A DNA stretch of 64,000 nt. Source: Bacteroidota bacterium. Lineage in GTDB: Bacteria; Bacteroidota; Ignavibacteria; Ignavibacteriales; Ignavibacteriaceae. Position numbers and translations under genes: made by a program. The stretch covers positions 1 to 64,000 of the forward strand of contig JAJYDC010000014.1 in the NCBI GenBank assembly GCA_021777835.1, in the 5' to 3' direction. How positions within the stretch are numbered: position 1 is the stretch's first letter; each line of letters begins with the position of its first letter. The notes beneath the pieces are model-generated. The model was given only the letters and a program-made list of their open reading frames with translations, was not told the origin of the DNA and did no database searches. Of the stretch, positions 173-63,769 are shown one piece after another.

Positions 173-431
173 AATTTCAGTCTTTATTGAGTAATACTTT
201 ATGTTTTGGACAACAAAGATAAATTGTTTTAGATAGAATGCCAAGTAACCTTTATCTAAAATTATCTGACCATATTATTGTTAAAAATAATGATAAATTA
301 TTAAGTTTTTCAATATAAGGGGAGGGTTTTGGGAAATTATTTTGGGAAGACGATAAGGGGAAAAACTGAATTATTTTAAGCTTTACTTTTAGGTTTATTA
401 TTTCTAATTTTATTATAGAAATAATGATTAA

Positions 432-462
432 CCTTTAACTCTATCCCGAGAGATGGAAAAGG
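432..462 (+). promoter_or_regulatory. PyrR-binding RNA hairpin (anti-antiterminator) in the pyr leader
   Basis: The leader can fold into a two-part hairpin typical of PyrR binding sites. The upper stem CTATC (441-445) pairs with GATGG (452-456) around the hexaloop CCGAGA (446-451), which fits the known CNGNGA loop consensus. The lower stem CCTTT (432-436) pairs with AAAGG (458-462), with an asymmetric bulge AACT opposite A457. In Bacillus, PyrR with UMP binds such a hairpin and favours termination. Its position upstream of a terminator and of pyrR itself supports the same logic here. The rest of the gene-free stretch 173-431 shows nothing I can name apart from a weak -10-like TATTAT at 411-416. 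Confidence 0.75.
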
Positions 463-498
463 ATGAAGATGAAATTAAATAATAAAATTATAAGGTAA

Positions 499-534
499 CC
501 TCCAAGGAATATTTTTCCACGGAGGATTTTTTTT
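499..534 (+). terminator. pyr attenuator terminator overlapping the pyrR ribosome-binding site
   Basis: CCTCC (499-503) pairs with GGAGG (521-525). An inner stem GGAA (506-509) pairs with TTCC (515-518), and eight T residues follow (527-534). This is a classic intrinsic terminator only two bases before the pyrR ATG at 537. The GGAGG of its 3' arm is also the Shine-Dalgarno sequence of pyrR, so the hairpin could block both transcription and translation. A competing pairing of 454-460 (TGGAAAA) with 513-519 (TTTTCCA) would break both this hairpin and the PyrR-binding hairpin and is a candidate antiterminator. Confidence 0.75.
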
Positions 535-536
535 AT

Positions 537-1082
537 ATGGACATAAAATCAAAATTAGTTGACCAGAAGGGGCTTGAAAGAATCATCACAAGAATAGCCC
601 ATGAGATTCTAGAACGCAATAAGGGTTCTAAGAATCTTGTACTGATGGGAATGAGGACTCGTGGTGAATACCTCGCCAGAAGGCTGTTTGAGAAAATCAA
701 AGAAGTTGAAAAGATAGAACTGCCATTTGGTGTACTAGATGTTACTTTATATCGTGATGATTTCAGAGTCAGGCTGAAGCAGCCTGAAGTATCGGTTTCA
801 GATATTACTTTCAATATAAATGAAAAGGATATCATACTTGTTGATGATGTACTTTTTACCGGGAGAACAGTAAGGTCGGCACTAAACGCAATAATGGATA
901 TGGGCAGACCTAATACGATTCAGCTTTTTGTTTTAGTCGACCGAGGACATCGTGAGCTTCCGATTCGAGCTGACTATGTAGGGAAAAACATTCCGACTTC
1001 TATAAACGAAGAAGTGAAGGTTAAAGTGTCGGAGTTTGACGGTGAGGATGCAATTTATTTAATGGAAATGGAAAACAATTAA
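537..1082 (+). CDS. pyrR: PyrR, pyrimidine operon attenuation protein / uracil phosphoribosyltransferase
   Basis: The protein has 181 residues, the usual PyrR length. A type I phosphoribosyltransferase fold is indicated by the PRPP-binding motif ILVDDVLFTGRTVRSA (about residues 99-113). The N-terminal half contains the conserved LVLMGMRTRGEYLARRL block. PyrR binds leader RNA of pyr genes when UMP is high and has weak UPRTase activity. It heads the pyrR-pyrB-pyrC operon, with 17 bases to pyrB. It is preceded by a PyrR-type RNA hairpin and a terminator, which strongly supports autoregulation by attenuation. The start at 537 is set by GGAGG at 521-525. I am sure of the family; the RNA target is inferred from the leader. 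Confidence 0.95.
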   Translation: MDIKSKLVDQKGLERIITRIAHEILERNKGSKNLVLMGMRTRGEYLARRLFEKIKEVEKIELPFGVLDVTLYRDDFRVRLKQPEVSVSDITFNINEKDIILVDDVLFTGRTVRSALNAIMDMGRPNTIQLFVLVDRGHRELPIRADYVGKNIPTSINEEVKVKVSEFDGEDAIYLMEMENN

Positions 1083-1099
1083 ACATTTGAGAAATAATT

Positions 1100-2020
1100 A
1101 TGCCTTTATCTAGCAGACATTTGTTAGGCTTACAAGGGGTTCCTAAAGAGGATATTCAGTTAATTTTAGACACAGCATCAACGTTTAGAGAAGTTTTAGA
1201 AAGGCCTATAAAAAGGGTGCCGACGCTTCAAGGGAAAACGATTGTTAATCTTTTTTATGAAAACTCCACGAGGACGAGAATATCTTTTGAGCTAGCCGAG
1301 AAGAGATTATCGGCTGATTCGATAAACTTTGCTGTATCTGCAAGTAGCGTAAGCAAAGGAGAGTCGTTCAAAGATACAATAAAAAATATAGAAGCGATGA
1401 AAGTTGACATGGTTGTAGTAAGACATTCAGCAGCAGGAACGCCTTTATATTTAACAAACATATCCGATGCTAACATAATTAACGCAGGCGATGGAATACA
1501 TGAGCATCCAACTCAAGGGTTGCTTGATATGTATTCGATTAGAGAGAAATTAAGGAAAATTGAGGGTCTGAAGGTTTGTATAGTAGGGGATGTAGCGCAT
1601 AGCCGGGTGGCGCTGTCAAATATTTATGGGCTGAAGACAATGGGTGCAGACGTATCTGTTTGCGGTCCTTCGACTATGATCCCAAGGAACATAGAAGATC
1701 TTGGAGTGAAGGTGATTTATAATATTGATGAGGCTATACAAGAAAATGATGTGTTAAATGTTTTGCGGATTCAGCTTGAAAGAAAGGCTAGGGAATATTT
1801 TCCTTCAATAAGAGAGTACGCAAAATATTTTGGTATTACTGAGGAAAGATTGGAGAAGAATGGTAAGGACATATTAATACTTCATCCGGGACCAATCAAC
1901 CGAGGTGTTGAGATATCATCGGGTGTTGCTGATGGTTTACATCAAATTATTTTGAAACAAGTTACTAATGGAGTGGCGATAAGAATGGCCGTTCTATACT
2001 TGCTTGGAACTTTAAATTAG
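1100..2020 (+). CDS. pyrB: Aspartate carbamoyltransferase catalytic subunit
   Basis: The protein of 306 residues catalyses carbamoyl phosphate + aspartate to carbamoyl aspartate, the second step of UMP synthesis. The carbamoyl-phosphate loop STRTR is at about residues 55-59 (FYENSTRTRISFELAEKRL). The HPTQGLLD motif is near residue 135 and HPGPINRG near the C-terminus. Length matches the catalytic chain. No regulatory chain (pyrI) is present nearby, so this is probably a catalytic-only or PyrC-associated enzyme. It follows pyrR by 17 bases and precedes pyrC by 11 bases, in the same operon under the PyrR attenuator. Confidence 0.96.
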   Translation: MPLSSRHLLGLQGVPKEDIQLILDTASTFREVLERPIKRVPTLQGKTIVNLFYENSTRTRISFELAEKRLSADSINFAVSASSVSKGESFKDTIKNIEAMKVDMVVVRHSAAGTPLYLTNISDANIINAGDGIHEHPTQGLLDMYSIREKLRKIEGLKVCIVGDVAHSRVALSNIYGLKTMGADVSVCGPSTMIPRNIEDLGVKVIYNIDEAIQENDVLNVLRIQLERKAREYFPSIREYAKYFGITEERLEKNGKDILILHPGPINRGVEISSGVADGLHQIILKQVTNGVAIRMAVLYLLGTLN

Positions 2021-2031
2021 CGGAATAAGAA

Positions 2032-3324
2032 ATGAAAGTTATACTAAAAAATGTTTCACTTTTTCATCCTGCACAGAAGATAGATGAAAAGGGAATTGAT
2101 ATCCTTTTGACTGACGGTGTTATATCAAAAATTGGTAAAATAAAGGCTGAGGAAATATCCGGAGCTAAGATATTTGATCTTACGAACAAACACATTGTAC
2201 CAGGTTTTTTTGACATGCATGTACATTTAAGAGAGCCGGGGAGGGAAGATGAAGAAACGGTAATAACCGGCTGTAATGCTGCGGCGAACGGTGGTTTCAC
2301 AGGGATAGCCTGTATGCCTAATACGGAGCCAGCAATAGATTCAGCAGAGATAGTAACCTTTATTAAAGAGAAGTCAAAAGATCATTTAGTTGATGTAGAA
2401 GTAATAGGTGCAGCGACTTTGGATCGAAAAGGAGAATATATTTCTCCTATGGCAGAGCTTTATGAAGCTGGTGCGGTTGGCTTTTCAGATGACGGTGTTG
2501 CAATAAAGACTGCGGGAATTTTGAAACGAGCGTTTGAATACTCCAAGATGTACAATGTGCCTATAATTGAACACTGTGAAGATGAAACATTAGCAGGTGG
2601 AGCAATGAATGAAGGAATCAACTCGACTATGCTAGGCTTACCTCCAATTCCCTCTGTTGCTGAAGAATTAATTGTAATTAGAGATATAATGCTAGCAGAG
2701 TACACCGGGGGGAAAATTCACATTGCTCACATAAGTACAAAGAAATCAGTTGAAATGGTGCGCGAAGCTAAGAGAAAAGGAATTGCAGTAACTTCTGAGG
2801 TTACGCCTCACCATTTTACTTTGATTGACGACTCATTAAAATCTTACGATACAAATCTAAAAATGAATCCGCCTTTAAGAACAAGAGCGGATATAGATGA
2901 AATTCTACTTGGATTACAAGACGGAACGATTGATTGCATTTCAAGTGATCATGCACCGCATTCAGCAGAGGAGAAGGAGGCAGAATTTGAACATGCGCCT
3001 AATGGAATAACTGGATTGGAGACTCAAGTAGGATTAGCACTAACGGAGCTATATCACAAGAAGGTTATTACGCTTGAGCAGCTTATCGAGAAAATGGCGA
3101 TCAATCCAAGAAAGATATTAAACTTGCCGGTACCAAGTATTGAAGTTGGACAGATTGCGAATTTTACTATTCTAGATCTAAACGAAATATTTACTTTTGA
3201 CATTAGCAAATCAAAGAGCAAATCAAAGAATTCACCATTTGATAAAAGGCTACTAACAGGAAGAGCAATTGGAGTAATTAACAATTGTAAATTGTTTTAT
3301 CAGGATGAATTCTTAATCCTATAG
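2032..3324 (+). CDS. pyrC: Dihydroorotase, class I
   Basis: The protein of 430 residues catalyses the reversible cyclisation of carbamoyl aspartate to dihydroorotate. The metal-binding HxH motif sits in DMHVHLREPGREDEET (His63/His65). Further ligands lie in IIEHCED and HIAHIST, and the catalytic Asp306 in SSDHAPHS. This is the longer class I type (about 420-450 residues), which in many bacteria forms a complex with PyrB; the adjacent pyrB fits that. A short low-complexity insert (SKSKSKSKN) near residues 391-399 is unusual and is probably a surface loop. It is the last gene of the pyr operon. Confidence 0.96.
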   Translation: MKVILKNVSLFHPAQKIDEKGIDILLTDGVISKIGKIKAEEISGAKIFDLTNKHIVPGFFDMHVHLREPGREDEETVITGCNAAANGGFTGIACMPNTEPAIDSAEIVTFIKEKSKDHLVDVEVIGAATLDRKGEYISPMAELYEAGAVGFSDDGVAIKTAGILKRAFEYSKMYNVPIIEHCEDETLAGGAMNEGINSTMLGLPPIPSVAEELIVIRDIMLAEYTGGKIHIAHISTKKSVEMVREAKRKGIAVTSEVTPHHFTLIDDSLKSYDTNLKMNPPLRTRADIDEILLGLQDGTIDCISSDHAPHSAEEKEAEFEHAPNGITGLETQVGLALTELYHKKVITLEQLIEKMAINPRKILNLPVPSIEVGQIANFTILDLNEIFTFDISKSKSKSKNSPFDKRLLTGRAIGVINNCKLFYQDEFLIL

Positions 3325-3351
3325 GTGATTTTGGGAAGCAATTATGTACAA

Positions 3352-3389
3352 AATGTTTAGTAAAGTATACATACACTTTGCTAAACATT
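3352..3389 (+). terminator. Long hairpin after pyrC, probable operon terminator
   Basis: A 15-base arm (3352-3366, AATGTTTAGTAAAGT) pairs with 3375-3389 (ACTTTGCTAAACATT) with one G-T wobble and an 8-base loop. It lies 27 bases after the pyrC stop codon and before an unrelated lipoprotein gene. There is no clean T tract behind it, so it could instead be an RNA-stabilising hairpin. Confidence 0.5.
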
Positions 3390-3470
3390 AGTATTTAGTA
3401 AGAAATTGCTTATTTTATTTGGCATCTATTTTGAATTTTATGTGTAGAATAATATCGTAAAGGTGCCTTA

Positions 3471-4283
3471 ATGAAAAAGTTAATATTAGTTACAATTGCA
3501 TTCACATCTATTTTTATTCTCGCTTCTTGTAATAGAACTAATCCAGTAATGGTTGATAATCAACCGCCTTCAGCTCCTACGGGTGTCCAAGTCATTAACG
3601 GTGATAATACAGTGGAAATTAGCTGGAATAAAAACCCTGAAAGTGACGTTGCGGGATATAATGTGTATTATGCATTAAGCTACAATGGAAAGTATACCCT
3701 AATTGGCACAACTACGAATAATTATTATGATGATAATGGTGCAACAAACGGTATAACTGATTATTATGCGGTTACCGCATATGATTATAATGGAAATGAA
3801 AGTCAGCTAAGTGCTGATAACGTAAGCGCTACACCACGTCCGCAAGGATTAAACGAAGAAGTGTTCGATTATAGAAATTATCCAAGCAGTGGAGGGTTTT
3901 CATTTACAACGTATAGTGATGTAGCCTATAATGATACTACGGCGGATTTCTATTTCGAAAATTATAATGGGACCTTTTATATCGATGTATGGAGTGATAC
4001 AGATATTGAAGATATGGGACCCACAAACAGTATATATGATATTAGTTATGCGCCAACATCAGGCTGGTCTACTACCAAGGACGCGCCGGCGATAGTTGGA
4101 CATACTTATGTAATTTGGACTTGGGACAATCATTATGCAAAAATAAGAGTCAGCAGCATAACCAATGAGAGAATGGTATTTGATTGGGCATTTCAGACAG
4201 TTGCAAAGAATACTCAGCTTAAACAAGTTGCGATTCCCAAAGTTCGAAGGCCGTTAGACCTGTCCAAAATAAATAGACATTAA
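3471..4283 (+). CDS. Lipoprotein with fibronectin type III domain
   Basis: The protein has 270 residues. It starts with a lipoprotein signal peptide (MKKLILVTIAFTSIFILASC) with lipobox LASC and lipidated Cys20. A fibronectin type III-like domain follows at about residues 33-120 (PPSAPTGVQVINGDNTVEISWNK is split across the A-B strands; later AGYNVYYA and DYYAVTAYD). The C-terminal half is beta-rich with no recognised family. It is probably anchored to the outer or inner membrane. It stands alone between two operons, 187 bases after a terminator-like hairpin. Function is unknown; FN3 domains commonly mediate surface contacts or carbohydrate association. Confidence 0.8.
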   Translation: MKKLILVTIAFTSIFILASCNRTNPVMVDNQPPSAPTGVQVINGDNTVEISWNKNPESDVAGYNVYYALSYNGKYTLIGTTTNNYYDDNGATNGITDYYAVTAYDYNGNESQLSADNVSATPRPQGLNEEVFDYRNYPSSGGFSFTTYSDVAYNDTTADFYFENYNGTFYIDVWSDTDIEDMGPTNSIYDISYAPTSGWSTTKDAPAIVGHTYVIWTWDNHYAKIRVSSITNERMVFDWAFQTVAKNTQLKQVAIPKVRRPLDLSKINRH

Positions 4284-55620: not shown

Positions 55621-56220
55621 CTAACAGCCTTCTTTAATAGCCGCTTGTTTGCTGCCTTTTGGTTTTTCCAACAATTGATTTGCGGAAATTTTCTCGCCTG
55701 ATAGTTTGCCTCTTAATTCCATAAGAGTATTAATATCTTTATCGCTCAGTTGAGAGGTTATTGTTATTCCAAGTGGATCTATTAAATATTCTTTTACTGC
55801 CGGAAATCCGCCTTTAATTGCAAATGCCCTGGCATCCTTTACCTGTCTTAAAAGAGCAACTGCTTCCTGGGCATCCTTCGTATTATTGCCATATACAAGT
55901 ATAAGATCATCAGGATTCCAACCTGAGTTCTGAAGTTGTGCAATGTCCTGGTTAATTGCAGGCTTTAAATGTTCCTTTGTAAATTCCTTTGCATCTCTTA
56001 CATCAATCCAGAAACAATTGGTATTATTATATGAATAATATTTTGCCGCTTCAACCGGAGAAATAGTAAAAATTCCTGTTTCATTATAATGCTGCTGTTT
56101 TAGCTGAGCATCAACAACAAACGGATTGTTAATAAAGGATGAAGTTGGGAAGAGGGCTAAAAGTAAAGCGATAAATAAACCCAAGCCAACTAACGAATAT
56201 TTTTTATTTAATTTAATCAT
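55621..56220 (-). CDS. Exported rhodanese-like protein without catalytic Cys, with C-terminal AIKEGC tail
   Basis: The protein of 199 residues has an N-terminal membrane/signal segment (about residues 8-28). A rhodanese-like domain follows (about 45-155): CFWIDVRDAKEFTKEHLKPA, DLILVYGNN, and AIKGGFPAVKEYL. The active-site loop normally has a Cys after the LVY strand; here it reads LVYGNNTKD, so classical sulfurtransferase activity is unlikely. The extreme C-terminus is KQAAIKEGC, identical in its last six residues to the tail of the molybdoenzyme of the same operon. The C-terminal Cys could carry sulfur, as SoxY does with its GGCGG tail; that is a hypothesis. It overlaps the preceding transporter gene by eight bases. 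Confidence 0.82.
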   Translation of the reverse strand: MIKLNKKYSLVGLGLFIALLLALFPTSSFINNPFVVDAQLKQQHYNETGIFTISPVEAAKYYSYNNTNCFWIDVRDAKEFTKEHLKPAINQDIAQLQNSGWNPDDLILVYGNNTKDAQEAVALLRQVKDARAFAIKGGFPAVKEYLIDPLGITITSQLSDKDINTLMELRGKLSGEKISANQLLEKPKGSKQAAIKEGC

Positions 56221-56812
56221 TTTTACCCCAGAATTTATACTGCAATTTCCGCATTCCTAAACTGCCGAAAACAGCGAGTAGAGCAACTAAAAGAATTGCT
56301 AATCCAACATTTATATTAAAAAGTTGATCGATACGCCAGACACCATTAGCTCCTGAATTATAAAATTTATCCCACCAAGGATATAAATCGCCGAACAATA
56401 AACTTCCCAATAAGAATCCTCCGACAAAAACCATCGCATCGATTTTTCCCGTTACCATTGCAGCTATTGATGTTCCGGGGCAGAAACCTCCCATTGCCAT
56501 ACCTACACCGAAGATTAAACCTCCAACTACCATCGGTAATAAATATGAAGGAAGGAAATAGAATTTGCCAAGGTCAATTAAGCCGAGAAGAGACAAACCC
56601 CAAAGACCTATTGAAGCTGTAGTTATAGCAGTGAACATTACTACTGGAACATCAACATCTTTCATATAAAATGCTCCGGCTATTTTCTTTGAGCTTGTGA
56701 ATCCTGAACGCTGTAATGCATAGCCGAATAGCATACCTATCAATACTGCAAAGAGAGTGTTGACACCATCAGAAATAATACCATTTTTTACCAGTGGTCC
56801 TATCATATCCAT
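56213..56812 (-). CDS. YeeE/YedE (DUF395) family sulfur transporter, second half
   Basis: From the ATG at 56812 the protein has 199 residues. Longer in-frame starts up to 56983 exist, but they lie inside the upstream gene and give a basic, non-membrane N-terminus, whereas AGGAG sits just before 56812. About five to six membrane segments are present. The conserved Cys lies in VGMAMGGFCPGTSIAAM, a hallmark of the family, whose full-length member TsuA takes up thiosulfate. LLGSLLFGDLYPW follows. It overlaps the first half by ten bases. The two together would make a complete transporter, feeding reduced sulfur compounds or sulfur atoms. Confidence 0.88.
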   Translation of the reverse strand: MDMIGPLVKNGIISDGVNTLFAVLIGMLFGYALQRSGFTSSKKIAGAFYMKDVDVPVVMFTAITTASIGLWGLSLLGLIDLGKFYFLPSYLLPMVVGGLIFGVGMAMGGFCPGTSIAAMVTGKIDAMVFVGGFLLGSLLFGDLYPWWDKFYNSGANGVWRIDQLFNINVGLAILLVALLAVFGSLGMRKLQYKFWGKND

Positions 56813-57312
56813 TGTCTCCTTATAAAATATGCAACCGCGAATCCGCCTGCAAAAATTGAGAACATAAATGCCCATGCGCCAACAGAAAGCTCTGCGCCTC
56901 CGACTAGTGCCTGTCCGCTTGTACAGCCTCTTGCCATCCTTGCAGCATAACCTACCAATATTCCACCTGCAAGGGCATACCACAATCGTCCCTTATTAGA
57001 GATATTTGGCCCTTTTAATACTTCAAGTTTCATATCCTTTGAAACCATTCCGGCTATAAAGCTTCCTATCATTACTCCGATAATCAAGTAAACTAAGTAA
57101 TCATCAAGAGGGTTTGCGCCATTAGCAAAATATTTTGAAAAATATTGACTGGATTGAGTTATAGAAGGCGACAAGATATTTTGTATTGTTGCAGCAAATG
57201 CTGTAAGTGCGCCAGATGCGCCTAAGCCTCTACCAGCAACATAAAATGTAAGAATGATACTTATTCCTATAACTACGCCTCCGAATACGGGATCCCATAA
57301 TTTTTTTTTCAT
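56803..57312 (-). CDS. YeeE/YedE (DUF395) family sulfur transporter, first half
   Basis: The protein of 169 residues has about four to five membrane segments. The conserved Cys motif is in GYAARMARGCTSGQALVGGAEL. The N-terminus MKKKLWDPVFGGVVIGISII and the length match the half-size YeeE/YedE type (PmpA/PmpB-like), where two genes code for what is one polypeptide in TsuA. The start overlaps the stop of the cytochrome b gene (ATGA at 57309-57312) and the stop overlaps the second half, so translation is coupled throughout. Substrate is probably thiosulfate or another reduced sulfur compound. Confidence 0.88.
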   Translation of the reverse strand: MKKKLWDPVFGGVVIGISIILTFYVAGRGLGASGALTAFAATIQNILSPSITQSSQYFSKYFANGANPLDDYLVYLIIGVMIGSFIAGMVSKDMKLEVLKGPNISNKGRLWYALAGGILVGYAARMARGCTSGQALVGGAELSVGAWAFMFSIFAGGFAVAYFIRRQWI

Positions 57313-58208
57313 AATTCATCTCCGTTCATGTCGTATACCTTAGAATTAACTTGATGATTTGCTATGTTTTTGCAGTCATGTAATGCAGGCAAGTCGATAC
57401 CGTCCTTCTTTAGTTCTTCTGCAAAGAAAGCATGCTCTTCGTTCTTAATTTCAGTCCACCATTTATAATGATGTAAATATGCATACAATTCGTTTACCTT
57501 TCCTGTAATCATGGAAAAGAACGCAGGGCGTTCTTCAGGGAACAGAGCAGCCATATAAACATGGACAAATACACCAGCAAAGACAGACATAGTAGCTACA
57601 AAATGAAGCATCATTGACCACTGTATTATTGTTGTTGATCCTATATGGAATGCCATAATAGGGCCTGTTATCATTAATGTTAAAGTACTGAAAGCTACTA
57701 CAACGGCATAAGCTTTTTGCCCAGCATTGTATGTTCCTTGCGGAGGCATTTCGTAGTGGTTTAGCTTGCCTGCAAGGTTTTTAGCTTTTGCGGGGAACCA
57801 GCGAATATCATCTTTATCGATTGTTAAATCATGTTTAACAAAATCAAGCAGATAATTCTTATAACCGAATATACCATATAACAATAGTGTAGTAACCCAA
57901 AATACTCCGACAGCAATATGAAAATGGAGCATTGCTCCTCTAGTTCCGAAAATTCCATCCATCATGTTTATGTACCATGCGGGTGCAAATTGTAGATAAC
58001 TAGCAGAAAGCAAAGCTGTGCCGGTAAAGATCAAAAGAAACCATGAGATGGCATTTACCCAGTGCAATGTTACGCCGCCCACTCCATGTTTCTTCATAAC
58101 TCTCGTTGCAAGGATTCTCTTTTCATCAAATGATAAATGTCTTGGGCCTTTTAGTAAGTCATGATCTAACACAATATCATCATTTAGTTTAATATTTTTA
58201 TTTTCCAT
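57309..58208 (-). CDS. Cytochrome b subunit of the molybdoenzyme complex (PhsC/FdnI-like)
   Basis: The protein of 299 residues has about four to five membrane segments with histidines placed for two b-type hemes: LHWVNAISWFLLIFTG, LHFHIAVGVFWVTTLL and MMLHFVATMSVFAGVFVHVY. This pattern is the formate dehydrogenase gamma / thiosulfate reductase cytochrome b family, not the NrfD type found in many polysulfide reductases. It would pass electrons between the quinone pool and the iron-sulfur subunit. The start is set by AAGGAG before 58208. It follows the iron-sulfur subunit by three bases. Confidence 0.9.
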   Translation of the reverse strand: MENKNIKLNDDIVLDHDLLKGPRHLSFDEKRILATRVMKKHGVGGVTLHWVNAISWFLLIFTGTALLSASYLQFAPAWYINMMDGIFGTRGAMLHFHIAVGVFWVTTLLLYGIFGYKNYLLDFVKHDLTIDKDDIRWFPAKAKNLAGKLNHYEMPPQGTYNAGQKAYAVVVAFSTLTLMITGPIMAFHIGSTTIIQWSMMLHFVATMSVFAGVFVHVYMAALFPEERPAFFSMITGKVNELYAYLHHYKWWTEIKNEEHAFFAEELKKDGIDLPALHDCKNIANHQVNSKVYDMNGDEL

Positions 58209-58211
58209 CTT

Positions 58212-58940
58212 TTACTCCTTAATATCACTTTCGCCTTTAAATAACTGCGTCGAAAATGCTGCAAGCTGTCCTAAGAAAGAACCGCCGATTGCGAGCCAGA
58301 ATAGAGGACGCAAGACCTTTGTCCACATTTTTTGCGGAGTCGGCATGTTTGGAACTTTTGGAGGAAACGCAGCCTGAACTACAGGAAAATGATTATGGCT
58401 ATCAAGGTAATAAATGTTTGGTCCAACATTTACTTTTGACGATACATTAGGCTGTGCGCCATTTGCAATTAGCTGGGATACTTTAGAATTGGGGTCATCT
58501 ATATCTCCAAATATTCTTGCGCTTGCAATGCAGGTTGCAACGCAAGCAGGCTCTACTCCTTGTTCCACTCTATCAATGCAAAAGTCACACTTATCTACTT
58601 TTTCTTTAACAGGATCAATATATCTTGCGCCATAAGGGCATGCTTCAATGCAAAGACCGCATCCTATGCACAAATCCTTATCGACAACAACGACACCATC
58701 TTTTCTTTTATATGTTGCGCCTGTAGGACAAGCTTTAACGCAGGGCGCATCGTCGCAGTGGTTACAAAGGCCAACATAACTTACTTTTTTAATGTCAGGG
58801 TAAACGCCTTCGGGACGTAAATCGTGTACCCAGTTGCGGTAATAGGGGACAGGTACATCATAGTGAGAGCGGCAAGCCACTTCACATGCATGGCAAGCAA
58901 TGCATCTATCCATATCAATTACCATTGCATATTTACTCAT
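58212..58940 (-). CDS. Four-cluster ferredoxin-type electron transfer subunit (PhsB/PsrB-like)
   Basis: The protein of 242 residues has four groups of cysteines for [4Fe-4S] clusters: CIACHACEVAC, CNHCDDAPCVKACPTGA, CIGCGLCIEACPYGA and CDFCIDRVEQGVEPACVATC. A C-terminal membrane segment (about residues 214-236, FWLAIGGSFLGQLAAF) anchors it. It links the molybdoenzyme to the cytochrome b. It has no Tat signal of its own, as usual for these subunits, which travel with the catalytic chain. The spacing is nine bases after the catalytic subunit gene. Confidence 0.92.
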   Translation of the reverse strand: MSKYAMVIDMDRCIACHACEVACRSHYDVPVPYYRNWVHDLRPEGVYPDIKKVSYVGLCNHCDDAPCVKACPTGATYKRKDGVVVVDKDLCIGCGLCIEACPYGARYIDPVKEKVDKCDFCIDRVEQGVEPACVATCIASARIFGDIDDPNSKVSQLIANGAQPNVSSKVNVGPNIYYLDSHNHFPVVQAAFPPKVPNMPTPQKMWTKVLRPLFWLAIGGSFLGQLAAFSTQLFKGESDIKE

Positions 58941-58949
58941 AATTAACTC

Positions 58950-61298
58950 CTAACATCCTTCTTTAATTGCCGATGCTTTTTTCTTTGGTTGAATATTAAA
59001 TGTTTTGTTTTGATCTTCCTCTTGTTTAACGCCGGATATTTTTTTGGCAGAAACTCCTGTCATGCTGACTTCAACTGTAGGAGACAGAGGTTGTTCGTCT
59101 TTTATTAACCTGACAAAATTAACCCTTAATCCTGTACCTCCGCTTATAGGGTCAACAGTATATTTAGAAATAAGATTGTTATCAGAAATATTGCGTTTGG
59201 TGTAATCAAGTAAACCTCTGTCATTTCCTCCAAATCCATGAGGAAGAAAGACTGCATCATGTCTCATACCGGGAGTCATAAGTATTTTGATTTTATCTGA
59301 TCTTATTCCATCCTGATTTTCTACTATAACTTCTTCGTCGTTCTTTAAGCCCATACTTTTGCCGATAATTTCATTTATCCAAAGGTGAGGCTCAGAAATT
59401 AAAGTATTTAACCATGGATTACTTTCGGTTTTGCCATGCGAATGAACGGGCATTAAGCCGTAAACTAATCTAAAATATCCTTTCCCGGGGTCATTTACAG
59501 GCTCATATACGGGAATAGGATCAAAACCAAGGTCTTTCAATTCTTTTGAATAAAGATGAACTTTCTTATCGGATGTTTTGAATTGATAAGATTCTCCGGG
59601 CTCTAAGAATGGTTTAGCGGGGAAAGTTATAACTCCGTCTCTTTTAAGTTTTGTAAATGATATACCGGAATCTTTCAATTGATATTTAATAACATCTTCG
59701 TAGTCATTGTATGGATAGTAAGCTGATAGTCCTAACCTTTTGCCTAATTCCTTGGCAATCCACCAGCCGGGTTTTGTATTATGTACTCTTTTTATAACCG
59801 GCTGTCGTAGAGATACATATTGTTTGTACCATCCTGTTACTGTCATTAGTGTATCGTAGCGTTCCAGATAAGTGTCTTCTGGTAAAATTACGTCTGCATA
59901 CCATGTAGGTTCTGTTGGTCTTACATCAACAACAACATAGAAATCTAGATTGTCTATGGCTTTTCTTGTATCTCTTTTAGCGGGGATACTGTTAAAAATA
60001 TTCTGTCCGAATACCATCCATGATTTGATTGGATAAGGTTTTTGACTAAGAGTAGCTTTTACTAATTCTTGAGTTAATCCTTCCTCAGTGCTTGCAAGAG
60101 GGAAACGGTAGCCAGCGCCGTCAACTCTTTGTCTTTTTGGTATTGGAGCAGCAGGAATATCCAGAGCGTTATAACTTGCCGGGAATTCAGATTTTAAGAA
60201 GTATCCTCCTTTCTGTCCCCAGATACCAAGGATAGCAGAGAGAATTGCTACAGCTCTCGCACGTTGTACATCGTTACCATACCATGCAACATGGCGTCCG
60301 GGATGAACTAATACAGCCGGCTTTGCGTCCATCATAGCTTTAGCTGTTTCTCTAATTACATTAGCCGGAATCTCTGTTATCTTTTCTGCCCATTCGGGTG
60401 TAAACTCTTTTACGTGATCTGTTAATTCAGAAAAACCTGTTGTGGAATTTCTAACGAAGGTTTCGTCATAACCTTTTTTATTTATTATTTCATTTATCCA
60501 AGCCAGGACTAGAGCAGTATCGGTACCAGGTTTTATTGGAAGCCACCATTTAGCTTTACTTGCTGCAGTAGAAAAACGCGGGTCTACAGCGATTACTTTT
60601 GCGCCGTTTGCCAATCCATCAGTAAAATCTATAATTTGTCCTGTGTGTATATTCTCACCAAGAGCACTGCCTATAAGAGTTATAACTTTTGCATTAGCAA
60701 GATCAAGTCTTTCGGGTGATCCCATATTTTCGCCGTAGGTTAGCTCATAGCCAACATCTCTTGAGCCTTTGCATTGAGCAAATGAAGGAGCCGCGCTATT
60801 AGGAGAACCCAAGAAGCTATACAAGTCAGTTGCAAAGTAACCGGATGCACCATGAGCGAAAAGCCCATTTGCTTCAACACCGTACTTTTTAGTTACAGCT
60901 AATAATTTCTCTGCTGTATAATCGAGAGCTTCATTCCAGCTAACTTCTCTCCATTTCCCGCTGCCTCTTTCACCGACTCGAATCATTGGTCCTTTTAGGC
61001 GGTCTTTTTCATAAACAAGCGCTACACCTGCGTTACCACGAGCGCATATTTTGCCACGGTTATTTGGATGAAGCGGGTTACCCTCTATATTAACTAATTT
61101 ACCATCTTCAACTGTAGCTATTATTCCGCATCTCCAAAAGCATTGTTCGCATACACTTGGTATACGCTCAATTCTTTTTGGCTCTGTTCTTACTGCTGCT
61201 TTAGTCTTGGAAGTTGAAGTTGATAAACCAACTGCTGCCCCTGTTCCGACAGTTCCGCTAATTTTTAGGAAAGACCGCCGAGAGATTTTCTTCTCCAA
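58950..61298 (-). CDS. Tat-exported molybdopterin oxidoreductase (PhsA/PsrA-like) with C-terminal AIKEGC tail
   Basis: The protein of 782 residues is a catalytic subunit of the complex iron-sulfur molybdoenzyme family. The Tat signal is KKISRRSFLKI (residues 3-13). The first cluster site is CEQCFWRC...GKICARG. A likely Mo-ligand Cys lies in SFAQCKGSRDVG. Later blocks PTEPTWYADVILPEDTYLER and LFLPHGFGG-like VFLPHGFGGN are typical of the thiosulfate/polysulfide reductase branch. After the MopB C-terminal domain a Lys-rich tail ends with KKASAIKEGC. The start is TTG, supported by GGAGG seven bases upstream and an in-frame stop just before it. Substrate (thiosulfate, polysulfide, tetrathionate) cannot be decided. 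Confidence 0.9.
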   Translation of the reverse strand: MEKKISRRSFLKISGTVGTGAAVGLSTSTSKTKAAVRTEPKRIERIPSVCEQCFWRCGIIATVEDGKLVNIEGNPLHPNNRGKICARGNAGVALVYEKDRLKGPMIRVGERGSGKWREVSWNEALDYTAEKLLAVTKKYGVEANGLFAHGASGYFATDLYSFLGSPNSAAPSFAQCKGSRDVGYELTYGENMGSPERLDLANAKVITLIGSALGENIHTGQIIDFTDGLANGAKVIAVDPRFSTAASKAKWWLPIKPGTDTALVLAWINEIINKKGYDETFVRNSTTGFSELTDHVKEFTPEWAEKITEIPANVIRETAKAMMDAKPAVLVHPGRHVAWYGNDVQRARAVAILSAILGIWGQKGGYFLKSEFPASYNALDIPAAPIPKRQRVDGAGYRFPLASTEEGLTQELVKATLSQKPYPIKSWMVFGQNIFNSIPAKRDTRKAIDNLDFYVVVDVRPTEPTWYADVILPEDTYLERYDTLMTVTGWYKQYVSLRQPVIKRVHNTKPGWWIAKELGKRLGLSAYYPYNDYEDVIKYQLKDSGISFTKLKRDGVITFPAKPFLEPGESYQFKTSDKKVHLYSKELKDLGFDPIPVYEPVNDPGKGYFRLVYGLMPVHSHGKTESNPWLNTLISEPHLWINEIIGKSMGLKNDEEVIVENQDGIRSDKIKILMTPGMRHDAVFLPHGFGGNDRGLLDYTKRNISDNNLISKYTVDPISGGTGLRVNFVRLIKDEQPLSPTVEVSMTGVSAKKISGVKQEEDQNKTFNIQPKKKASAIKEGC

Positions 61299-61928: not shown

Positions 61929-62576
61929 TTAATAAGAAGAAATGATTTTTAATTTATCTATCCTTTTTTTTAATACTTCATAATCATCTCTTTTGTTCAT
62001 ATTAAAAAAAGTATCTTTTTGGTAAAAGGGGAGAGATTCAGCATCGATTATTTCTGCGCCAGCGATATCAATTAATCCTAAGACTTTGCAGCCTCTCTTT
62101 TTTTGTTCTGCGTCTCTGCCTTCTTCATTTAGTTGATTTGATAATATTTTTTCAGCTAAAGATAGTATTGATTTATTATAAACTCCGCACAACTGCTGAA
62201 TAAATCCGTCCGCTTTTGCAATAGTAATCTGTTTATCTGTTTTATATTCGATAAGATATTTTATCATTTGTTCGGTCATTAAAGGAATATCGCAAGAAAT
62301 AACGAAATTTTTTTCGGTCGAAGAATAGGTTAAGCCGGAATGAATTCCTGCTAACGGACCCATTTGCGTGTATATATCCTTGTAAATATCCAAACCAAGG
62401 AAATCATATTCGTCCGGAGTATTTGCAATTAAAATTACTTCGGAAAAAATATTTTTCATTAAATCACTTACATACTCAATAATTGTCTTACTTCCGATTT
62501 TCATGAGAGATTTATTCTCGCCCATTCTTGTGCTTTTTCCGCCGGATAAAATTATTCCGCTTATATCATTATACAT
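61929..62576 (-). CDS. mobA: Molybdenum cofactor guanylyltransferase
   Basis: The protein of 215 residues transfers GMP to molybdopterin to make the bis-MGD cofactor used by enzymes of the DMSO reductase family, such as the one encoded just downstream. The nucleotide-binding N-terminus is SGIILSGGKSTRMGENKSLM (residues 6-25), followed by GPLAGIHSGL and VISCDIPLM with the metal-binding Asp. The length is slightly above the Escherichia coli protein (194). It overlaps the end of moeA by 16 bases. The 630-base gap to the molybdoenzyme operon suggests separate transcription. Confidence 0.92.
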   Translation of the reverse strand: MYNDISGIILSGGKSTRMGENKSLMKIGSKTIIEYVSDLMKNIFSEVILIANTPDEYDFLGLDIYKDIYTQMGPLAGIHSGLTYSSTEKNFVISCDIPLMTEQMIKYLIEYKTDKQITIAKADGFIQQLCGVYNKSILSLAEKILSNQLNEEGRDAEQKKRGCKVLGLIDIAGAEIIDAESLPFYQKDTFFNMNKRDDYEVLKKRIDKLKIISSY

Positions 62577-63769
62577 TCTACTGTTTCTCCAATGCGCGGA
62601 TTCATTCTATTTTCTTCGACAATTATAAGACAATTTGATTTTCCCATTTCAGCAAGATTGCCGGAAGATTGATTGCCTACTTTTTTAACATAATACTTGC
62701 CTTCATCACTATAGCTATAAAGGCCTCTCATAAAATGTCTTTTAGAATCTTCTTTCTTTAGGTCATCTTGCAGGGTAGCTGAAAATTTATTATTTATTTT
62801 CAGTTTAAATAAATTGAGGATATTTTGCTCTACAAATAAGAAGAAATTAACCAGACTTGAAACAGGATTTCCGGGCAAACCGAAAATCATGGTTTTGCCT
62901 TCATTAAAGGAATAAGTTCCGAAAAGCAATGGTTTACCGGGTTTTATCTTCACCTGCCAGAATTTAGTTTCCACTCCAAGACCTTCATAAACATCCTTTA
63001 CAAAATCAAATTTACCGAATGAAACTCCGCCCGTAGTTATTAAAATATCGAGTTCGCTTTCGAGAGCCCATTTAAGTCTATCGTGGATTAGCTGTTTATC
63101 ATCTTTAGCAATTCCAAAATTTACCGAATGCATATTAATATTGCGGATAGCAGCAATAATAGAATACAAATTTGAACATCTAATCTTATCGCCGGTTGGT
63201 GTTTCGTGAATATCTACAAGCTCATCACCCGTAGCAAGAACTCCAATTTTTAATCTCTTATATACTTTTAGGGTAGATCTTCCGCAAGAGGCTGCAACTG
63301 CAATATGGTGAGGTTTTAATAGAGTATCCTTAAGAATTGCTAATTTACCTTTTAATAAATCTTCTCCCAACTTTCTGGTGTTAATCCCTTTTGCAAATCG
63401 TGCGTCTTTTTTCAGGTAGACTATATTATTTTGTTGTTCAACATCTTCTAAAGGGACAACCGTATCGCATCCGGAAGGCAATTTACTACCTGTCATGATG
63501 CTGACAGTTGAATGTTCATCCAAGTCGTAATCGTTAAATTTTCCAGCTGGTATTTCACCGGCAATCTTCCATGTTTTTATATCGCTGTTAAATTTAATAG
63601 CAAAACCATCCATAGCAGAATTATTAAAAGGAGGCAGGTTTATATCAGAAAAGACATCTTCTGCTAAAACGCGGTTCACCGAATTTAATAAATCAATTTG
63701 CTCAGTCTTCAGGTTTAATTTGTTAAACTCAGTTTGAATAATATCCTGTGCTTCAATATAACTAATCAT
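62561..63769 (-). CDS. moeA: Molybdopterin molybdenumtransferase
   Basis: The protein of 402 residues inserts molybdate into adenylylated molybdopterin. Family motifs are intact: NNSAMDGFAIK, SIMTGSKLPSGCDTVVPLED, GVLATGDELVD, ITTGGVSFGKFDFVKD and GLPGNPVSSLVNFFLF. Length fits MoeA. It overlaps mobA by 16 bases and precedes it, forming a two-gene cofactor operon beside the molybdoenzyme genes. Other cofactor genes (moaA, moaC, mogA) are not in the window but may lie beyond its right edge. Confidence 0.95.
   Translation of the reverse strand: MISYIEAQDIIQTEFNKLNLKTEQIDLLNSVNRVLAEDVFSDINLPPFNNSAMDGFAIKFNSDIKTWKIAGEIPAGKFNDYDLDEHSTVSIMTGSKLPSGCDTVVPLEDVEQQNNIVYLKKDARFAKGINTRKLGEDLLKGKLAILKDTLLKPHHIAVAASCGRSTLKVYKRLKIGVLATGDELVDIHETPTGDKIRCSNLYSIIAAIRNINMHSVNFGIAKDDKQLIHDRLKWALESELDILITTGGVSFGKFDFVKDVYEGLGVETKFWQVKIKPGKPLLFGTYSFNEGKTMIFGLPGNPVSSLVNFFLFVEQNILNLFKLKINNKFSATLQDDLKKEDSKRHFMRGLYSYSDEGKYYVKKVGNQSSGNLAEMGKSNCLIIVEENRMNPRIGETVECIMI

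Follow-up and report, generated by a model that had tools for sequence, protein, structure and literature searches.

What would lead two different proteins of one operon to end in the same six residues? The question is raised by a 64,000-nucleotide stretch of an Ignavibacteriaceae genome (contig JAJYDC010000014.1, positions 1 to 64,000; below, the window), in which one operon encodes a PhsA/PsrA-type molybdoenzyme (here PhsA), two halves of a YeeE-type transporter and a rhodanese-like protein. An earlier note on this DNA had reported that PhsA and the rhodanese-like protein both end in AIKEGC with Cys as the last residue, and they do: the first closes with NIQPKKKASAIKEGC and the second with EKPKGSKQAAIKEGC, each directly before its stop codon (Table 1). 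We find that this tail is conserved on the rhodanese-like protein, where it is linked to the YeeE-type transporter and accompanied by loss of the rhodanese catalytic Cys, and that on PhsA it occurs in one genus only. The reading we favor, with slightly more confidence than doubt, is that the rhodanese-like protein belongs to a split YeeE/YedE transporter as a subunit that is anchored in the membrane, faces the periplasm and presents sulfur.

Rarity of the AIKEGC tail

The earlier note judged a chance identity unlikely, and counts across the genome uphold this. As a DNA pattern, A-I-K-E-G-C-stop occurs at 2 places in the 3.64-Mb genome, which are these two genes, and at none in a reversed control. 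The looser pattern [KRQ]-E-G-C-stop occurs at 5 places (6 in the reversed control), namely the two window genes, one place reading TGG, and frames of 5 and 8 codons. Besides the window genes, no frame of more than 8 codons in the genome ends in [KRQ]EGC, which rules out a tail carried by many proteins of this organism. A terminal Cys is itself uncommon, being found in 2 of 376 other genes of at least 150 amino acids in 40 related neighborhoods, and a sister genome's PhsA accounts for one of these two; this background and the genome-wide counts rule out chance or composition as the cause. The two window tails are identical at 19 of 21 bases. Because the tail codons vary both between the two genes and among genomes, the likeness lies at the protein level, and a repeated DNA element is ruled out as its source.

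Conservation of the tail in rhodanese-like proteins

The rhodanese-like proteins of five sister genomes, at 68% to 90% identity, end in [IV][KR]EGC, and seven homologues from other genera, at only 22% to 27% identity, end in KKKEGC, KKREGC or LGGC and each follow, or are fused to, YeeE halves. In an alignment of the window protein with 16 relatives (15% to 75% identity), the final Gly and Cys are among six invariant columns, and the catalytic loop is variable. All 17 members match PF00581 (E<=0.001) and no other Pfam model, the SoxY domain included. Some relatives have the tail variants GGCG, GGCS, GGCT, GGCA or GGGCG, which come near the GGCGG of SoxY that the earlier note had named as a precedent. 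Gly directly precedes the tail Cys in the YeeE-linked tailed ends, the exceptions being FQC (L095) and GGLCS (L086 and L093). A search for plasmid relatives of the window rhodanese gave no match.

The note had also proposed a search for K-E-G-C ends, to see whether they cluster with PhsA, YeeE and rhodanese genes. A KKKEGC-stop pattern was found at 11 places in 390 genomes of the phylum, compared with 1 in a reversed control, and 9 of the 11 belong to tailed rhodanese-type proteins. Another, in G203 (L104), was dismissed as out of frame within an NrfD-like gene. The last is an orphan tail end in G045 (L102, approximately 1438-1521, plus strand), a 27-codon frame ending in AKKKKEGC that has no rhodanese domain and resembles a leftover of a tailed protein that has been lost; G045 has no match to the second YeeE-type half of the window (YeeE2).

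Some loci contain more than one copy of the genes concerned. In L134 (G179, 2628-3924, minus strand) a tandem pair of tailed rhodanese-like proteins, both ending in KPEGGC, stands behind the YeeE halves, and in L095 (G292, 198-3639, plus strand) a second module copy consists of a 562-amino-acid multi-domain rhodanese, two YeeE halves and an RFQC-tailed protein.

YeeE linkage and the missing catalytic cysteine

The association of tail and transporter was counted from both sides. Starting from the rhodanese, a core profile built from tailed proteins, with the tail columns omitted, was run over the loci and gave 107 distinct rhodanese open reading frames (ORFs), after merging those with identical last 90 residues; the set covers matches that were read, namely the best-ranked ones, those of the window's phylum and those of Pseudomonadota. 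An ORF was called YeeE-linked if its own strand had a YeeE ORF no more than 3 kb away. A tail Cys is present in 73 of the 77 YeeE-linked ORFs (64 with Cys last, 9 with Cys plus one residue) and in 1 of the 30 ORFs without such linkage, that of L059 (G330); the Fisher test gives p ~1e-20, a value that only describes the contrast, as the sequences are related. The four untailed YeeE-linked ORFs are L051, which has a broken frame, L021, and L095_6 and L134_14, the last two being other rhodaneses next to tailed ones. Natural fusions of a YeeE half with a tailed rhodanese also exist, and the tail is kept in them.

The same table bears on catalysis. The catalytic-loop position is Gly, Ser, Ala, Val or Asp in 71 of the 73 YeeE-linked tailed proteins and Cys in 26 of the 29 unlinked, untailed ones, a loss that is partly selected for in the sample, as the core profile includes the catalytic loop of tailed proteins. 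In the window protein the alignment places Gly at this position (LVYGNN), where an active rhodanese has Cys.

To avoid the rhodanese as a starting point, YeeE2 was taken as the query against 296 genomes of the phylum, with 57 matches in 51 genomes. Over the loci read, 52 of the 53 strong matches (E below 1e-30) either neighbor a protein whose last or penultimate residue is Cys or are fused to one, and at the 53rd, in G013, the rhodanese frame is broken. None of the 4 weaker matches (E 1e-12 to 1e-17) has a Cys-tailed neighbor. By eye, two of these (L232 in G222 and L234 in G028) lie near arsenate-reductase-like and arsenite-exporter-like genes with no tailed rhodanese there; of the remaining two, the first has an untailed metallo-beta-lactamase/rhodanese protein next to it and the second is a YeeE of full length.

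The pairing of a YeeE-type channel with a Cys-tailed rhodanese that lacks the loop Cys extends to at least three phyla. Among 151 Chloroflexota genomes, 24 had matches and the loci of 12 were read: all 7 YeeE-rhodanese fusions end in SGGGCG, with Ser as the loop residue in the two inspected in full, and of the other 5 loci, 4 are intact and untailed and L193, broken by stops, was dropped. Among 349 Pseudomonadota genomes, 32 had matches and 20 were read (L166-L185); the sole YeeE-linked locus of these, L166, ends in SGGCA, and the other 19 are untailed. With the untailed L021 (Burkholderiales), one of the two YeeE-linked proteins known from Pseudomonadota thus has the tail.

The tail of the molybdoenzyme

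PhsA is present in 6 of the 13 genomes of the window's genus, the same six that have the rhodanese, and ends in [KR]EGC in all six, down to 82% to 85% protein identity. The residue before Glu agrees between the two proteins of each genome (4 K/K and 2 R/R), which is no more than a hint given that the six genomes are related. By contrast, PsrA/PhsA ends in Cys in none of 27 other genomes (L112-L131, L133, L134, L136, L137, L140, L021 and L231), which rules out a general PsrA tail and makes that of PhsA a genus-level addition.

The earlier note had taken both tails for a sulfur carrier or a docking signal, and had named homologues keeping the operon without the tail as the finding that would speak against this. 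Such homologues are what we see for PhsA, outside the genus, and not for the rhodanese. Its interpretation is thus supported in part: it gains support for the rhodanese, where the tail is conserved, tracks YeeE and coincides with loss of the loop Cys, whereas on the molybdoenzyme the tail is confined to the genus.

Enzymes encoded upstream

At 26 loci of other genera, as well as in the window's genus, the module is preceded by a PsrA/PhsA gene with Fe-S and membrane subunits (the PsrA frame of one of the 26, L116, is broken). In the fused type (L141, L145 and L149 were scanned and seven further neighborhoods compared by eye), a multiheme cytochrome (PF11783) lies upstream, joined in L141 and L145 by a b561-type cytochrome. 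The sole solved-structure match of the L141 multiheme cytochrome is 1sp3 (E 5.1e-130), which we take to be the octaheme tetrathionate reductase of Shewanella. The RMGC-type module comes after a tandem rhodanese (L139 scanned, three others by eye). Neither the RMGC-type nor the fused-type neighborhoods contain PhsA within the stretches read.

A possible sulfur-presenting arm and its alternatives

A rhodanese domain without its catalytic residue, a conserved terminal Cys on a low-complexity linker, near-constant pairing with YeeE, and upstream enzymes of the Psr or 1sp3 type together argue for an arm that presents sulfur. The domain would probably serve as a docking scaffold, and the flexible, usually Lys/Arg-rich linker that ends in Gly-Cys would carry sulfane sulfur on its Cys, as a persulfide or an S-thiosulfonate. 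This sulfur could be supplied by periplasmic PsrABC/PhsABC, by an octaheme-type cytochrome or by an exported rhodanese, and would be delivered where the YeeE pair takes it in, so that the tail Cys is the counterpart of the YeeD Cys on the cytoplasmic exit side. The molybdoenzyme of the window's genus, having gained the same tail, may load this site directly or dock at it. We infer the periplasmic location, the loading with sulfur, the contact with YeeE and the direction of transfer from sequence and gene context. More tentatively, and a little short of even confidence, we suggest that these proteins form a widespread class of periplasmic sulfur carrier in which the reactive Cys of a rhodanese has moved from the loop to a peptide arm feeding a split YeeE, and that the arm was copied onto a respiratory enzyme in one genus.

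Several observations weigh against the sulfur-presenting role. Two tailed proteins, L040 and L044, retain the loop Cys, and its loss elsewhere is subject to the sampling noted above. In L021 (Burkholderiales) a YeeE-linked rhodanese protein of 483 amino acids is untailed, on a contig that stops inside YeeE2. One of the 52 strong YeeE matches, in G262, is a YeeE fusion ending in SGGC with no rhodanese match by profile or Pfam. In G330 (approximately 99% complete), tandem tailed rhodanese proteins stand behind Fe-S and NrfD-like genes (L059, 7-1374, minus strand; the contig ends after them, and the second copy scored below inclusion in the table of 107 ORFs), and YeeE2 finds no match in this genome at E<=1e-5. 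YeeE is therefore not the sole possible partner, which slightly lowers our confidence in the reading; in G330 the tail may work with Psr alone, or the transporter may be too divergent. The usual tail, moreover, is basic and ends at Cys, whereas two residues follow the Cys of SoxY, and PsrA/PhsA lacks the tail in the 27 genomes read outside the genus. Finally, the AlphaFold2 models are of low confidence (pLDDT 48 for the rhodanese from 5 alignment rows, 41 for PhsA from 6 rows).

The chief rival, clearly less probable, draws on Sud of Wolinella, which has a rhodanese fold, resides in the periplasm and supplies Psr with sulfur from polysulfide. The tailed protein would likewise bring sulfur to PsrA or the octaheme enzyme, with YeeE acting in a separate step. 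The two tailed proteins of G330, behind PsrBC-like genes with no YeeE2 match, and the 26 loci in which PsrABC precedes the module fit such a carrier. However, the tail stays with YeeE in the RMGC and fused types, where PhsA was not seen in the stretches read, many tailed domains form a single protein with a YeeE half, and the reactive Cys of Sud sits in the rhodanese loop. DsrC and TusE are sulfur-trafficking proteins whose functional Cys is on an arm at the C-terminus (DsrC has two arm cysteines); they differ from the tailed rhodanese in being cytoplasmic and of an unrelated fold.

An unlikely alternative, though consistent with the YeeE linkage and with the Cys motif in both window halves, is a tail that docks in or plugs the vestibule of YeeE, tied to a channel Cys by a disulfide, so as to hold or gate the complex and carry no sulfur. 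The same tail on two different proteins would then suggest a single recognizer. Against such a plug, YeeE-rhodanese fusions keep the tail despite their covalent tether, and tailed proteins occur without this YeeE. For PhsA alone, the tail could be the product of DNA copied from one gene of the operon to another, with no function there, as its restriction to one genus and the agreement of 19 of 21 bases in the window might suggest; we consider this improbable, because all six genomes keep the tail across their divergence, with the K/R match as a further hint from related genomes. There is little to recommend a metal- or selenium-binding tail, or one that acts as the transporter's redox sensor in the periplasm: some YeeE/YedE proteins are linked to selenium, with NCBIfam YedE/FdhT matches below cut-off, but the recurrent partners are Psr-type enzymes, a 1sp3-related cytochrome and rhodaneses. 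Least probable of these is a lipid or other covalent attachment site anchoring the proteins to the membrane. Polybasic, Cys-ended tails like those seen here do resemble the lipidated ones of eukaryotic small GTPases, but the rhodanese has a hydrophobic N-terminal stretch in any case, YeeE-fused forms retain the tail, and some variants carry a residue beyond the Cys.

Comparison with known systems

Several described systems come close to this arrangement. The Cys of the SoxY GGCGG motif has an established sulfur-binding function (PMC6067878), and the variants GGCG, GGGCG and GGCS likewise put Cys behind glycines, close to the end of a C-terminal peptide, here on a rhodanese domain linked to YeeE. 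Thiosulfate uptake by YeeE-YeeD (TsuA-TsuB) similarly joins a YeeE-family transporter to a Cys on an added protein, and the YeeD Cys has been proposed as a fourth cysteine that receives the substrate at the cytoplasmic exit (PMC11073785). In our case an anchored protein, probably periplasmic, bears the additional Cys, and the transporter consists of two halves, like PmpA and PmpB, with one conserved Cys in each half (PMC11582611). In Hyphomicrobium, a periplasmic thioredoxin with a carboxy-terminal Cys motif is considered to aid sulfur release for SoxT1A (PMC11582611); this DsbA-like protein (C-terminal CxxC) differs in being a thioredoxin, SoxT is full length, and the portion of that source available to us mentions no conserved Gly-Cys terminus. 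In a model for Desulfurivibrio dismutans, YeeE/YedE proteins acquire sulfur from periplasmic polysulfide or sulfur transferases, and the Psr operon includes an exported three-domain rhodanese; the accessible text mentions neither a C-terminal Cys arm nor a dead rhodanese (PMC12142623).

No description of a Cys-tailed, dead rhodanese with YeeE was found in the full-text literature, covered by titles and abstract openings with supplements and most subscription journals outside, and the available parts of two papers on YeeE/YedE clusters (PMC13047784 and PMC12998232) do not mention the tail. Sulfur import into the cytoplasm is poorly understood, and how sulfur is presented to YeeE/SoxT-type transporters has only been speculated upon (PMC11582611). 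A conserved terminal Cys, found alongside one YeeE subfamily 52 times out of 53, makes this step testable by point mutation, and YeeE halves followed by a protein ending in GC or GGCx provide a sequence signature for finding the module. The module is also a case of a rhodanese domain that persists without its catalytic residue. If the proposal holds, the tail supplies a "zeroth" Cys at the channel entrance, and sulfur import would amount to a group translocation that takes sulfur from respiratory enzymes of the periplasm into the cytoplasm.

The window operon

The run from PhsA to the rhodanese-like gene comprises six genes on one strand, spaced or overlapping by approximately 10 bases or less (Table 1). 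PhsA is predicted to be exported by a twin-arginine signal, with PF10518 at 22.1 bits, slightly below its cut-off of 22.7, and the rhodanese-like protein by a hydrophobic N-terminal stretch judged by eye. PhsA is close to PsrA, a molybdopterin oxidoreductase with an Fe4S4 domain: it aligns with 2vpw_A (E 7.5e-191) up to residue 742 of 782, leaving 40 residues beyond, and at 520.7 bits falls below the cut-off of 694 for the NCBIfam PhsA equivalog. Both transporter halves match PF04143 (Sulf_transp) and carry one Cys motif each, as expected of a split transporter.

Table 1. Genes and tail codons of the operon, in window coordinates.
Feature	Position	Strand	Evidence or remarks
Rhodanese-domain protein, 199 aa	55621..56220	-	PF00581 33.8 bits (cut-off 22.2); N-terminal hydrophobic stretch
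Rhodanese tail codons A-I-K-E-G-C-stop	55621..55641	-	ORF reading and DNA pattern search
YeeE-type half transporter 2, with GGFCPGTS	56213..56812	-	PF04143 63 bits (cut-off 27); start is ATG with AGGAG upstream, picked by eye
YeeE-type half transporter 1, with ARGCTSGQ	56803..57312	-	PF04143 89.3 bits
b561-type cytochrome, membrane subunit	57309..58208	-	PF01292 66.9 bits
Ferredoxin-type Fe-S electron-transfer subunit	58212..58940	-	PF13247 88.4 bits and other Fer4 models
PhsA/PsrA-type molybdoenzyme, putative twin-arginine signal, C-terminal extension of ~40 residues with tail	58950..61298	-	PF00384/PF04879/PF01568
PhsA tail codons A-I-K-E-G-C-stop	58950..58970	-	ORF reading and DNA pattern search

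The window operon has no NrfD-type membrane subunit; in the window's genus a b561-type cytochrome stands where other PsrA operons carry an NrfD-like subunit (the NrfD-like ORFs of other genera were assigned by eye). The sole TusA-family (PF01206) match in the genome of the window is L186 (G000:C84:23729-23932), in which no CPxP motif is seen by eye. Upstream of PhsA, the genes at 61929-62576 and 62561-63769 (minus strand) are presumably molybdenum-cofactor genes, resembling MobA and MoeA, and a gene that we likewise take to be MobA-like is also present in L102 and L120.

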